From contig JABFQY010000001.1 of assembly GCA_013141415.1 (NCBI GenBank), forward strand, positions 310,001 to 374,000: a stretch of 64,000 bases of DNA. Reading direction: 5' to 3'. Below the pieces are notes generated by a model that saw nothing but the letters and a program-made list of their open reading frames with translations, made no database searches and had not been told where the DNA came from. Origin of the DNA: Kiritimatiellaceae bacterium (lineage in GTDB: Bacteria; Verrucomicrobiota; Kiritimatiellia; Kiritimatiellales; Tichowtungiaceae). Positions within the stretch are counted from its first letter, which is position 1. Each line of letters begins with the position of its first letter. Below are positions 28,125 to 33,394 of this stretch, piece after piece. Both the position numbers and the translations under genes were made by a program.

Positions 28125-30671
28125 ATGGCTGGTTCCATGTTGATACGGGCTTCCGGTGTGATTCTTTTTCTGAGCCTTCTGCTTTCCCCGCCAGCGGGGC
28201 GAGGCGCTGAAGGAGGCGGATCCGAATTTCCACCATTGACGAAAATTGCTCTCACGCACGGCGATTTTGACGTCAGGCTTTATGCGACAGAGGGTAATGA
28301 TCCGCGTGCGCTGGTTGTTTTCGGATCGGGGGACGGCGGCTGGAGCGCGTGGGAGCATGTGATTGCCACCTGGTTGCAAGAGGCTAATCTGGCGGTTGTT
28401 TCTTTTGATTTTGAAAAATATTCAGCGACAGATTTTGACCAGCCAACTGTTGCGAAGGATATGGCCGCCGTGGCGGATTTTGCGGCGAAGAAGTTACATG
28501 CCGACGGCCTGCCGGTTCTTTACGGCGGGTGGAGTATGGGCGCGGCTCAGGCAATTGCCGCCGCCAAGGGAACAAACCGTCCGCCGGAACTTGCCGGCCT
28601 GCTGCTGATGAGTCTGGACAGCCGCGGACGTTACGGTATTCGCGCGCCGGATCTGGTCGGTATCACGCCAACCGGGCCGGGAACATTTGATCTGAATGAG
28701 TTTAATCCGGATCTGCGCGACATCAGAGTGGTTCAGTATCACGGTACGGCAGACTTCATGGCCCAAACGACGTGGATCCGTTTGTTGAAGTCGCCGCATC
28801 AGTTGTACCTGCTGAAGGGAATGAACCATGGCTTTGACGGGCTTGGCCCTGAGTTCCAATCCGTATTGCTGCAGGGCGTGGCCTGGGCGCTGGGGGACGA
28901 TTCCGCCGCCGCTCCGCCGGAAGAAGGCCGGCATTTGCGCCCGGTACGGATGACCATATATGGAATTCTTCTGCTCATGCTGTTGGCCGGAATGGTTTCG
29001 CGCCGGGCCTCGCTGGTGCTTCTGCCGGCTTCGGTGGCTCTGTGCGGATTCTCAAACATTCTCGACTCCATCATTCCGGCATCCCCCGCGATTATTGATA
29101 AAATACAGGAATGGATTCCATTGGAAGTCAGTCAGCACGGACGGTTTGTTCTGTTTCTATCCGGCGCGATGCTTCTTGCTCTGGCCCGTGGATTGCGCCG
29201 GCGTAAACGGGTTGCATGGAATATGACAGCCGCTATTCTGTCGGCGGCTGCGGTTCTGGATTTCACACAAACCTTTAACTGGAACCGCTCAGCGGTTGCG
29301 CTGGTGATCCTGATGGCGCTGTTCCGGCGGCGTAGTCTGTTTGATGCCCGCTCCGATGCGCCTTCTTTCCGGCTTGGTATTGCCGCTGCCGGTGTCATGT
29401 TCCTATTGCTTGCGAGTTATGGAACAATAGCCATTCACGGACTGGGCGCACGCGGGGTTTTCGGGGATCCGCTGTCTTGGAGCGAGGCGTTTCACGGAGC
29501 GGTTTCTGCCGCCCTGCAGATCAAAACCGAGCTTAATGAACTTGCCGGGCGGGAAGCTTCTCATTTTTTGCATACGATCCGCCTTCAGGGTCTGTTTATC
29601 GGATTTTTTGCGCTGATTATGGTTTTACGCCCGGTGATTCTGAGAAAACAGGCACACAGTCCGGAAGATTTTGAAAACGTCAAATGGCTGGTGGACACCT
29701 ATTCGGATGATCCGATGGCCGTGTTTGCTCTGCTTCCGGATAAGCACTATTACTTTGAAGAAGGCGTTGAAGGTGTTGTCGCTTACGCGCTCTGGTGGAA
29801 TGTCGCCGTGGTGCTGGCCGATCCGATTTGCAAACCGGACTGCCGGGAAAAACTGGTGCACGGATTTATCCGCCATTGCCGCAGTTGCGATTGGAAGCCG
29901 GTTTTTTACTGTTCCCACTACACCAATCGCGACATTTACGAGCGGATCGGATTTCAGCTCATCCGGATTGCCGAGGAGGCCCGGCTCCGGCTGGCGGATT
30001 TCAAATTGGACGGTGCACGCTTTCAGAATTTGCGCACGGCCCGGAACAAGGCCCGGAAAAACGGACTGATATTCGGGTGGTACGGGGGCGAAGGGTCTCT
30101 GCCGGATGAGCAGATGGAAGGGCAGCTTCTGGAGCTATCCAAAGAATGGCTGAAACGGAAACGCGGCGGAGAAATGGGTTTTGATCTCAGCTCATTTGAT
30201 CTGCAGGCCATTCGCGAAAAAGGCGCTGCGGTGGTCCGTTCGCCGGATGGCCGGCTGGAAGCTTTTGCAACATGGCACACCTATGACCATAACAAAGGCC
30301 GCTGTCTTGACATCATGCGGAGTCGTGCCGAAACCCGGGATGTGATGGATTTTCTGATTCTGGAAGCCATTCAGTCGTTCCGTGATCAAGGGATCGAAGA
30401 AATCAGTTTTGGCAGCGCGCCGCTTGCGAACACAGCGGATCCGAGCGAGCACAGCATGTATGACCGCTCCATCCGGTTTGTCTTTGAAAATCTCGAACGG
30501 TTCTACGGCTATAAACGGCTGTTCTTCTTTAAGCAGAAATATCAGCCGTGCTGGGAGGCCCGCTATCTGTCCTATCCTTGCGGCACATCGCTTCTGCTGG
30601 TCGGTATGGCGATTGCCGGCGTTCACCTCACGCACGGATTCCGGAGTCTGTTGAGTTCCCGGAAACTATAG
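28125..30671 (+). CDS. mprF: Fusion: AcvB/VirJ-like hydrolase + MprF-like aminoacyl-phosphatidylglycerol synthase
   Basis: An 848-residue protein with a signal peptide (about residues 1-27). The periplasmic alpha/beta-hydrolase domain (residues 40-255) has FGSGDGGWS and the elbow GGWSMG (Ser137), with His in MNHGF. This is the pattern of AcvB/VirJ, which in Agrobacterium hydrolyses lysyl-phosphatidylglycerol. About seven membrane segments (275-505) follow. The cytosolic C-terminal half (about 515-830) resembles the MprF GNAT-like synthase domain (DDPMAVFALLPDKHYYF, FYCSHYTNRDIYERIGFQLIRI, FGSAPLANT). MprF transfers an amino acid from tRNA to phosphatidylglycerol. Synthesis and removal of the same lipid could thus reside in one chain. 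The MprF flippase half is reduced. Confidence 0.82.
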   Translation: MAGSMLIRASGVILFLSLLLSPPAGRGAEGGGSEFPPLTKIALTHGDFDVRLYATEGNDPRALVVFGSGDGGWSAWEHVIATWLQEANLAVVSFDFEKYSATDFDQPTVAKDMAAVADFAAKKLHADGLPVLYGGWSMGAAQAIAAAKGTNRPPELAGLLLMSLDSRGRYGIRAPDLVGITPTGPGTFDLNEFNPDLRDIRVVQYHGTADFMAQTTWIRLLKSPHQLYLLKGMNHGFDGLGPEFQSVLLQGVAWALGDDSAAAPPEEGRHLRPVRMTIYGILLLMLLAGMVSRRASLVLLPASVALCGFSNILDSIIPASPAIIDKIQEWIPLEVSQHGRFVLFLSGAMLLALARGLRRRKRVAWNMTAAILSAAAVLDFTQTFNWNRSAVALVILMALFRRRSLFDARSDAPSFRLGIAAAGVMFLLLASYGTIAIHGLGARGVFGDPLSWSEAFHGAVSAALQIKTELNELAGREASHFLHTIRLQGLFIGFFALIMVLRPVILRKQAHSPEDFENVKWLVDTYSDDPMAVFALLPDKHYYFEEGVEGVVAYALWWNVAVVLADPICKPDCREKLVHGFIRHCRSCDWKPVFYCSHYTNRDIYERIGFQLIRIAEEARLRLADFKLDGARFQNLRTARNKARKNGLIFGWYGGEGSLPDEQMEGQLLELSKEWLKRKRGGEMGFDLSSFDLQAIREKGAAVVRSPDGRLEAFATWHTYDHNKGRCLDIMRSRAETRDVMDFLILEAIQSFRDQGIEEISFGSAPLANTADPSEHSMYDRSIRFVFENLERFYGYKRLFFFKQKYQPCWEARYLSYPCGTSLLLVGMAIAGVHLTHGFRSLLSSRKL

Positions 30672-32804
30672 GTAAAGCGCGGTCTGCGGCTTGCTTTCGA
30701 GAACGTTGTACTGCCGCAGCGCCATCATCCACCACGGTGCCAGTTTTTCCGGCGGCAGAAGCCATATCTGCTCATGGAGCCATGCCATGCATTCCGGATT
30801 CATCAGCAGTGCCATTTGTTCGCGGCGGCTCAGCACGTCGGGGCCTTCGGTCACGACGCGATCCTGAAGCTGTGTGAAGTAGGTGCCTTCCAGCCGGCGT
30901 TTGTTGTGCCGCCGCAACAAGGCAATGTGGATGGCGTTGACGTAGGGATCAATGACAACCTGCATGAAGCCGTAATTTTTACGCAACGGTTCGAGCGGCG
31001 GCACATGCTGAGTGCAGACATCCAGGCTGACCTGCAGTTCCGCCAGTTCGACCGGCGGATTGCTTTCCTGCGGGGTAATGAAAAGTTTCATCCGGCGGGC
31101 GGCGGCTCCTGCCGATACTTTGCCGAGCAGTAACGAAACCGGAATGGCGACGACGAGGCCGATAAAAATGGGGCTCATCCACCAGAAAAAAGCCGGGTTG
31201 ATATGCCAGGCCATTGCGCCCCAAAGGATGCCGATGATCGTGTGTCCACCGTACGCTTCGATCGCTTCGCCCCAGTCGATGCCGTTTTCGCCGCCGCGCC
31301 GCTGAGGCCCCCAGCCGACTTCCTGTCCAGCCATAACGCCGAGGACAAACCGGGAGTGGAAGAGCATGAGGATCGGGGTGATGAGCATGGAGAAGAAGTG
31401 TTCCAGGAAAACGCTGATGGTGGCGCGCAGGCGTCCGCCAAACGGCAGGGCGGCCTGCCGGCTGCGCAGAATTAAAATCAGGCTGAGCAGTTTGGGGAGG
31501 AAGAGCAGTGAGATGGTGGTGGCGAAAAGAATAATGGCCAGCTGATTGCCGCCGATGTCGAGCAGTGAAGAGAGTCCGACATCATAGTCGAATGTGCGAA
31601 CGGTCAGCCGGGAGGCGATCCAGAACTGGAGCGTGCCAATGATCATGAAAAAGAGCCAGAGCGGAGAGGAAAGATAGCTCATGATGCCAAGGGCAAGGTG
31701 CAGGCGGTTAATCGGCCGGACGTGTGGCGACAGCACAAGCCAGCTGTGCTGAAAGTTTCCGCGGCACCAGCGCCGGTCGCGTTTGGCCATGTCGAGGAGC
31801 GTCGGCGGGCCGCCTTCGTAGCTTCCGTCAAGGCCGTAGGCCAGCCAGACTTCGTAACCGGCGCGGCGCATGAGAGCCGCTTCGACGTAGTCGTGGCTCA
31901 TGAATTTGGCGCGGGGCGTTTTGCTGGCCGGCAGATCGGGTAAAGCGCAGTGTTCGATGAATGGAGCAAGGCGGATGATGGCGTTGTGGCCCCAGTAGTT
32001 GCCTTCGTCGGCCTGCCAGAAATTCAGTCCGGCCTGAAAGACGGGGCCGTATAATGAGCCGGCGAACTGCATACCGCGCCCGAAGAGGCTTTCGCTGAGC
32101 GCCTGAACCGGGGCGGCCTGAATGATGCCGGCCTGCGGATTCAGTTCCATGAGCTGTGCCAGTTTGACGAGGCAGTCTCCGCTTATCACGCTGTCGGCAT
32201 CGAGAATGACCATGTAGCGGTATTTGCTGCCCCAGCGGCGGCAGAAATCGCTGATGTTGCCGCTCTTGCGGTTAAGGGCGGTTTTGCGTTTGCGGTAGAA
32301 GATGCGTCCGAAGCCCGAGACCTGTTTACAGAGTTCAGCCCAGGCCATTTCTTCTTCGATCCATTTGTTGGGATCGTTGGAGTCGCTCAGGATGAAGAAG
32401 TCGAAGCGCGAAAGATTTCCGGTTCGTTCGACAGATCGGTAGATGGCGCGCAGGCCTTCGTATACGCGGCTGACGTCTTCATTAAAGATGGGCAGAACAA
32501 CCGCTGTGACGGGGAGTTCCGGAAGGTCTTTTGTTTTTTCAAGCAGGGAAAGAATGCGTGCCGGATCCTTTTGCCGCCAGAGAACGATGAATCCTGTCAG
32601 CGCCTGAACGATTCCGAGAGAGACCGGTGTGAAGAGGATGGCAAAGAGAATCAGGATGGCGACTTCGCAGCTGTTCATGCCGCCACGCCAGAGAATGTCT
32701 GCCATGACCCAGGTGGCCAGCGTGATGAGCAGGAACACCAGCGAAAAGAAGATAATGCGCCGGCGTATTTTTTGAATGCCAGATAAAAGTTTTACTGCCG
32801 TCAT
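30666..32804 (-). CDS. opgH: Glucans biosynthesis glucosyltransferase H
   Basis: The inner-membrane GT2 enzyme that makes the beta-1,2 backbone of osmoregulated periplasmic glucans. The 712-residue protein has two N-terminal helices, then the GT domain (AVVLPIFNEDVSRVYEGLRA, ILDADSVISGD, the KRDRRWCRGNFQHSWL motif corresponding to Q/RxxRW) and about six C-terminal helices. It is shorter than E. coli OpgH (847) because the long cytosolic N-terminal region is missing. The start overlaps the upstream 197-residue gene by 4 bases. Its 3' end overlaps the convergent mprF-like gene by 6 bases. Confidence 0.93.
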   Translation of the reverse strand: MTAVKLLSGIQKIRRRIIFFSLVFLLITLATWVMADILWRGGMNSCEVAILILFAILFTPVSLGIVQALTGFIVLWRQKDPARILSLLEKTKDLPELPVTAVVLPIFNEDVSRVYEGLRAIYRSVERTGNLSRFDFFILSDSNDPNKWIEEEMAWAELCKQVSGFGRIFYRKRKTALNRKSGNISDFCRRWGSKYRYMVILDADSVISGDCLVKLAQLMELNPQAGIIQAAPVQALSESLFGRGMQFAGSLYGPVFQAGLNFWQADEGNYWGHNAIIRLAPFIEHCALPDLPASKTPRAKFMSHDYVEAALMRRAGYEVWLAYGLDGSYEGGPPTLLDMAKRDRRWCRGNFQHSWLVLSPHVRPINRLHLALGIMSYLSSPLWLFFMIIGTLQFWIASRLTVRTFDYDVGLSSLLDIGGNQLAIILFATTISLLFLPKLLSLILILRSRQAALPFGGRLRATISVFLEHFFSMLITPILMLFHSRFVLGVMAGQEVGWGPQRRGGENGIDWGEAIEAYGGHTIIGILWGAMAWHINPAFFWWMSPIFIGLVVAIPVSLLLGKVSAGAAARRMKLFITPQESNPPVELAELQVSLDVCTQHVPPLEPLRKNYGFMQVVIDPYVNAIHIALLRRHNKRRLEGTYFTQLQDRVVTEGPDVLSRREQMALLMNPECMAWLHEQIWLLPPEKLAPWWMMALRQYNVLESKPQTALYL

Positions 32805-33394
32805 CGTGTCATCCAGAAAAGATAAGTTAGGAATGCCAGAAAAATCAGCCAGCCGACCAATGCTTTGATAACCGGCATGCGGTTTAAGGCATCCATGGCG
32901 TCGTCGGCAAATTCAGGAATCAGCCCCAGATCAATCGGACGCGGCACCATGTTGCTGATCTGAAGTTCGGGCCCGGCGCGGATAAGGCTTTTGCGCATGG
33001 CGACTTTCAGGTCGGTCGGGATCTGGCGGGATTCAAGGAATGCGTAGGGCCAGCGCAACGGCCCGTCACAGAGGAACAGGGCGACACGACCGTCGGCGGC
33101 GGTAAAACTGGTATTGGTTCCGGCGGGTAGCTCCATAATCATAGTGAACCATTCGTTTAACAGACGATTCGCTTCTTCGATGACCAAGGTTGCCAGAGGC
33201 GCTGCCGGGCGTTGATCCTGCCATCGGCGGCTGACACGGCGAAGAATCATGGTGTTAAGGTGAGCTCGGTGTAAATGGCTATCCACCTCATGAGCCCGCA
33301 GGTAGCTCTCGAGTTTTTCGTAGGCGCTGTTCCATTCCTCCGGGCTGCCCCAGGTGGGAACGAAGGGTTCTATGGGTTCCAGAAGTAGGTCCAC
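32801..33394 (-). CDS. Unknown protein between opgG and opgH
   Basis: A 197-residue protein not recognised, with a GTG start. It is soluble over residues 1-170 with many Trp and Arg (SRRWQDQRPAAPLATLVIEEANRLL, SFTAADGRVALFLCDGPLRWPYAFLESRQIP). It ends with one membrane helix (VIKALVGWLIFLAFLTYLFWMTR), so it is tail-anchored with the bulk in the cytoplasm if the orientation is as for tail-anchored proteins. It overlaps opgG by 25 bases and opgH by 4, so it is co-translated with both and probably works with them. It might replace the cytosolic N-terminal region that this OpgH lacks. Confidence 0.7.
   Translation of the reverse strand: MDLLLEPIEPFVPTWGSPEEWNSAYEKLESYLRAHEVDSHLHRAHLNTMILRRVSRRWQDQRPAAPLATLVIEEANRLLNEWFTMIMELPAGTNTSFTAADGRVALFLCDGPLRWPYAFLESRQIPTDLKVAMRKSLIRAGPELQISNMVPRPIDLGLIPEFADDAMDALNRMPVIKALVGWLIFLAFLTYLFWMTR

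Follow-up and report, generated by a model that had tools for sequence, protein, structure and literature searches.

A flippase-less membrane protein of Verrucomicrobiota predicted to join an AcvB-like hydrolase and an MprF-type synthase

One open reading frame carries both domains

We analysed a 64,000-nucleotide stretch of a Kiritimatiellaceae bacterium genome (the window) and found that one of its genes encodes an alpha/beta-hydrolase domain, seven hydrophobic helices detected by hydropathy, and an aminoacyl-lipid synthase domain in a single chain. Judged from its sequence, this protein probably makes and removes an aminoacyl lipid in one cycle. It is predicted to be a new arrangement of known parts, namely a one-chain LpiA-AcvB-like module without a flippase. 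No described fusion of this kind was found in a literature search that had few subscription papers within reach. The parts of the gene are:

28125..30671, + strand: hydrolase-transmembrane-synthase fusion gene, 848 aa, one open frame
28125..28208, + strand: N-terminal signal peptide or signal anchor (residues 1-28), hydrophobic stretch at residues 2-20
28227..28910, + strand: alpha/beta-hydrolase domain of the VirJ/AcvB superfamily (residues 35-262), from PF06057, AcvB structure 9xhm and hhalign
28950..29006, + strand: extra junction transmembrane helix (residues 276-294), from hydropathy; kept in fusions, missing from the separate synthases examined
29013..29642, + strand: six helices, counterparts of MprF TM9-14 (subdomain 2, residues 297-506), from the NF033480 match, hydropathy and Lys/Arg in cytosolic loops
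29700..30572, + strand: aminoacyl-lipid synthase domain PF09924 (residues 526-816), from Pfam and solved MprF structures

The reading frame runs from the ATG at 28125 to the stop at 30671 with no internal stop codon or frameshift, and the motifs SGDGGWS and GGWSMG lie at residues 68-74 and 134-139. A preliminary description had placed both domains on one chain in this order, and its coordinates, motifs and count of seven helices were borne out; the Pfam search it proposed matched both VirJ (PF06057) and LPG_synthase_C (PF09924, formerly DUF2156). It had also raised a missed frameshift joining two separate genes, which is excluded by the uninterrupted frame and by full-length orthologues in independent assemblies. 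The same orthologues rule out a sequencing error or an assembly artefact as the source of the fusion. Cleavage motifs of the Ala-X-Ala type are clear in some relatives (e.g. SAHA before Q in L038) and ambiguous in the window protein.

The synthase domain resembles MprF without its flippase half

The C-terminal part matched LPG_synthase_C over residues 526-816 (E=1e-69), and its nearest solved structures were the MprF synthase structures 5vrv, 4v34 and 4v36 (E<=3e-30). The NCBIfam model of bifunctional MprF, NF033480, matched only from model position 318 on, scoring 331.8 bits where the cut-off is 600, and Pfam detected no PF03706 flippase (MprF TM1-8) in the protein. Alignment and a spacing check located the following positions:

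30138..30140, + strand: Ser672, probable counterpart of MprF S684
30309..30320, + strand: D-I-M-R, with Asp729 and Arg732 as probable counterparts of LpiA D750 and MprF R742 (PMC13197417, PMC11630815)

In MprF, S684 and R742 work together to produce aminoacyl-PG (PMC11630815). Ser672 and Arg732 appear to match this pair, and Asp729 appears to match the LpiA D750 position. In the synthase tree, the fused and separate synthases were set apart from flippase-bearing MprF (100/98), in a group that a long-branch Arthrobacter sequence also joins. In an 887-aa Arthrobacter plasmid protein (L021:2600-5263), the same synthase domain is joined to a membrane region with weak rhomboid similarity.

The hydrolase domain is AcvB-like but has an altered pocket

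The VirJ profile PF06057 matched residues 63-180 (E=1e-8, 35.8 bits against a gathering score of 22), a partial match that covers profile positions 3-120, i.e. 118 of 191. The nearest solved structure to the N-terminal part was AcvB, as 9xhm matched the domain with E=3.8e-7, and with E=1.2e-18 when the family profile was used. When 13 related hydrolases were compared as a profile with that of AcvB/VirJ by hhalign, the match had a probability of 98.7% and E=2e-16 over 194 columns. An unrelated esterase family, which the preliminary description had named as a possible origin of this domain, was rejected because AcvB was the top match by both sequence and profile. Four putative active-site positions were identified:

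28332..28334, + strand: Asp70, counterpart of AcvB Asp271 by alignment, invariant
28533..28535, + strand: Ser137, nucleophile position and counterpart of AcvB Ser336, invariant in 13/13 family hydrolases and AcvB/VirJ
28752..28754, + strand: Asp210, acid of the canonical Ser-Asp-His triad, invariant in 13/13 family hydrolases
28827..28829, + strand: His235, counterpart of AcvB His433, invariant in the family alignment and with AcvB/VirJ

All four residues are thus invariant in the 13 family hydrolases. In AcvB, Ser336, His433 and Asp271 have been mutationally tested (PMC13197417; PMC13135905), and Asp271 is needed for Lys-PG hydrolysis (PMC13197417). The hydrolase and synthase halves both look catalytically intact.

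The substrate pocket is a different matter. Asp271, Asp340 and Asp370 are the three acids shown to be important for Lys-PG hydrolysis by AcvB, and the latter two contact the lysine in an AcvB docking model. In our alignment Asp271 is kept as Asp70, Asp340 is replaced by Ala141 and Asp370 by an invariant Arg169, so that the acidic Glu368/Asp370 of AcvB become basic Arg167/Arg169. The ‘lysyl’ specificity given in the preliminary description is therefore unsupported, since only one of the three acids remains. The Asp370 position is also changed in Ala-PG organisms and Pseudomonas homologues. At position 141 the fusions have Ala, Val or Thr, and the separate hydrolases Glu, Ala or Val. Because some of the latter have no acid there either, losing the Asp340 acid was rejected as a fusion-specific trait. 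In the hydrolase tree, the fusion-type hydrolases and AcvB/VirJ formed separate clades (100/100) on long branches, with few AcvB/VirJ sequences sampled, and this distance suggests that the substrate may differ.

These features would also suit a hydrolase that acts on an unrelated ester, with the fusion merely placing two envelope enzymes together: the clade is distant from AcvB/VirJ, Asp340 and Asp370 are lost, and monoglyceride lipases show a weak profile similarity to the domain. An AlphaFold model of the domain, which was poor (pLDDT 49), showed only the alpha/beta-hydrolase fold in Foldseek and, at this low confidence, a likeness to monoglyceride lipases. However, AcvB matched far better than any lipase (E=1.2e-18 against 1.8e-6), and the lasting pairing with the synthase described below argues against chance co-location, making the unrelated-ester reading improbable.

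An extra helix would place the two domains on opposite membrane faces

The counterparts of TM9-14 lie at about residues 297-316, 340-357, 363-382, 387-403, 415-437 and 485-506 by alignment and hydropathy, and the Arg/Lys-rich loops between them fall on the inferred cytosolic side. The junction helix at 276-294 precedes them and was kept in all fusions aligned. The separate synthases examined have no such helix: their basic N-terminus leads straight into TM9, and the separate hydrolases end before any helix. An exported hydrolase joined straight to TM9 would invert the synthase, and the extra helix would restore its orientation. From hydropathy and the positive-inside rule we infer that the hydrolase is outside and the synthase inside. 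The odd helix count and the Lys/Arg distribution, as read from hydropathy, fit the opposite-face topology proposed earlier. The same two features disfavour an extracytoplasmic synthase as in LysX2. The AlphaFold model of the full protein was poor (pLDDT 35).

Fused and adjacent-gene forms occur across eight families

We found the whole fusion in eleven genomes of three Verrucomicrobiota families (G000, G005, G008 and G013 in f1; G470 and G472 in f62; G464, G511, G513, G777 and G859 in f54). It is present end to end in three other species of the genus at 80-87% identity (Verrucomicrobia MAG contigs CAIKWE010000039, CAIKGD010000037 and JADYZA010000178), and at full length in other classes of the phylum at 43-46% identity. 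In comparison with the three congeneric orthologues, the hydrolase had a dN/dS of 0.06-0.09 and the synthase one of 0.06-0.10, indicating strong purifying selection on both domains. The gene is accessory within the genus, as G004, G012 and G006 keep mdoH without it.

In nine genomes of five further families (G402, G404, G538, G589, G665, G694, G703, G768 and G823), the two halves are neighbouring reading frames, hydrolase first, which overlap or lie a few bases (4 nt) apart. The hydrolase-synthase pairing, fused or adjacent, thus spans eight families. G768 was rejected as a twelfth fusion because a stop separates its two reading frames. The halves of G489 are found at two contig ends, compatible with one gene split by an assembly gap. 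Fused hydrolase domains grouped in a single clade (100/100), as would follow from one fusion event; the fused groups were not resolved in the synthase tree, which speaks neither for nor against such an event. The survey of genome contigs used close patterns only, and fusions may also occur outside Verrucomicrobiota. Viral contigs searched held no fusion relatives, and plasmids searched held only partial MprF-type matches, none spanning 80% of the query. In Rhizobium and the verrucomicrobial genomes G506, G522, G312 and G430, too, a hydrolase gene lies next to an MprF gene. In G665, two tandem hydrolase paralogues precede the synthase gene (L073:1108-4647).

A PF03706-type flippase is not a constant partner

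The preliminary description did not mention that the flippase half of MprF is missing. Flipping by MprF requires subdomain 1 (TM1-8), the loss of which impairs translocation in S. aureus, and subdomain 2 (TM9-14) connects to the synthase (PMC8131360). The window's genome (95.5% complete) has a single synthase gene and no PF03706 match was found in it; nor was one found in G005, G489, G402, G404 (one contig, 100% complete), G538 or G522. Seven other fusion genomes have one or two PF03706 proteins each, not adjacent to the fusion, and in G008 the domain lies within a second, full MprF. A PF03706-type flippase is therefore not a constant partner of the system, as it was not found in several genomes that carry it and is present in others.

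The missing flippase half bears on how the lipid would pass from the inner synthase to the outer hydrolase. One reading is that the modification is kept on the cytosolic face and the hydrolase only clears aminoacyl-lipid that leaks into the outer leaflet, which would accord with the absent flippase half and with the lack of PF03706 matches in G000, G005, G402, G404 and G538. We regard this as very unlikely, given the PF03706 proteins of the seven other fusion genomes and the possibility of other translocation routes. Another, unlikely but somewhat less so, is a flippase-free one-chain cycle in which the six synthase helices and the junction helix would pass the lipid themselves and the substrate would be other than Lys-PG.

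A probable make-and-remove cycle and its relation to known systems

The reading that we favour is the single-chain cycle enzyme. The cytosolic C-terminal domain would load the amino acid of an aminoacyl-tRNA onto a membrane lipid, with phosphatidylglycerol as the likeliest acceptor; the lipid would reach the outer leaflet; and the N-terminal alpha/beta-hydrolase, tethered at the periplasmic face by the extra helix, would cleave the amino acid off again, so that one protein would set the steady-state level of the modified lipid. In its favour are the domain identities, the intact catalytic residues, the selection on both halves, the fused/adjacent pattern, the extra helix of the fusions and the LpiA-AcvB precedent; the topology, both activities and the identity of the synthase product with the hydrolase substrate are inferred. 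The reversible charge switch of the preliminary description is likewise a prediction. Counted against it are the missing flippase, the loss of Asp340 and Asp370, and a clade far from AcvB/VirJ proper.

The precedent is the LpiA-AcvB module found in Agrobacterium and Rhizobium, in which Lys-PG is made by LpiA and removed by AcvB, and the two are binding partners (PMC13197417). The window protein shares the two predicted activities on opposite membrane faces. However, LpiA and AcvB are two proteins from neighbouring genes with the synthase gene first, and their module includes a flippase domain and an acidic pocket for Lys-PG, whereas the fusion is one chain with the hydrolase first, no flippase and pocket acids partly lost. 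Since it lacks the flippase by which bifunctional MprF is defined, and since its hydrolase has an altered pocket and falls outside the AcvB/VirJ clade as sampled, the fusion is not a full member of either family.

The flippase-less MprF1 of C. perfringens (PMC11980842) likewise has only the six MprF helices TM9-14 before its synthase, but no hydrolase domain or extra junction helix has been described for it, and the fusion has both. Mycobacterial LysX, an MprF-type synthase too, has few membrane helices and carries an added domain, but this domain is a C-terminal lysyl-tRNA synthetase rather than a hydrolase. In operons of Chroococcidiopsis and Rubrobacter a hydrolase directly precedes a flippase-less synthase as in the fusion, but there as separate genes, the hydrolase belongs to a different family (PF00756), and a separate PF03706 gene follows. 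This plasmid-borne run of esterase, flippase-less MprF-type synthase and PF03706 flippase (L018:1995-5982, L019:2620-6375) looks like a case of an unrelated hydrolase in the same role.

Opposing enzymes in one chain would be held at a fixed ratio and place, and a single gene with two point mutations would serve to test the turnover of a charged membrane lipid. The occurrence of the pair in Verrucomicrobiota, both fused and as adjacent genes, lends independent support to the LpiA-AcvB partnership proposed in 2026. That the flippase half is lost even in complete genomes with this system raises the question of whether a periplasmic hydrolase needs a dedicated MprF flippase to reach its substrate.

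Gene neighbourhoods differ by lineage

The fusion gene has ExbB/ExbD/TonB and mdoH/mdoG genes as neighbours in this genus, and DUF1003 and HhH-GPD glycosylase genes in f62. In f54 it lies beside genes for an arginine decarboxylase and a second PLP-dependent decarboxylase (L039:474-7999, L040:163-7299), a pair that suggests a polyamine cluster. The neighbours thus differ by lineage, and none indicates one substrate.

In the window, the periplasmic-glucan genes mdoH and mdoG face the fusion gene in convergent orientation. Together with the basic Arg167/Arg169 in place of the acidic AcvB residues, this arrangement could point to a transferase or exporter step in which the outer domain passes the amino acid to a periplasmic acceptor or releases it, serving outward delivery and not a reset of lipid charge. 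We consider such a step doubtful, about on a par with the unrelated ester, as only this genus has the mdoGH neighbourhood among the loci examined, the neighbours in other families being different, and the characterised VirJ/AcvB relatives are hydrolases.

The fusion gene and mdoH share six bases where their stop codons meet (window 30666-30671), and a 197-aa reading frame without a Pfam or NCBIfam match lies between mdoH and mdoG (window 32801-33394, - strand). The DUF1003 gene overlaps the fusion start by 4 nt in f62 (L036:2095-2823, L038:2033-2746), and a DUF1003 gene is also found upstream of the Chroococcidiopsis hydrolase-synthase pair (L018:434-1003). An MlaA-type lipoprotein gene adjoins the separate hydrolase/synthase pair of G538 (L042:2956-6301).
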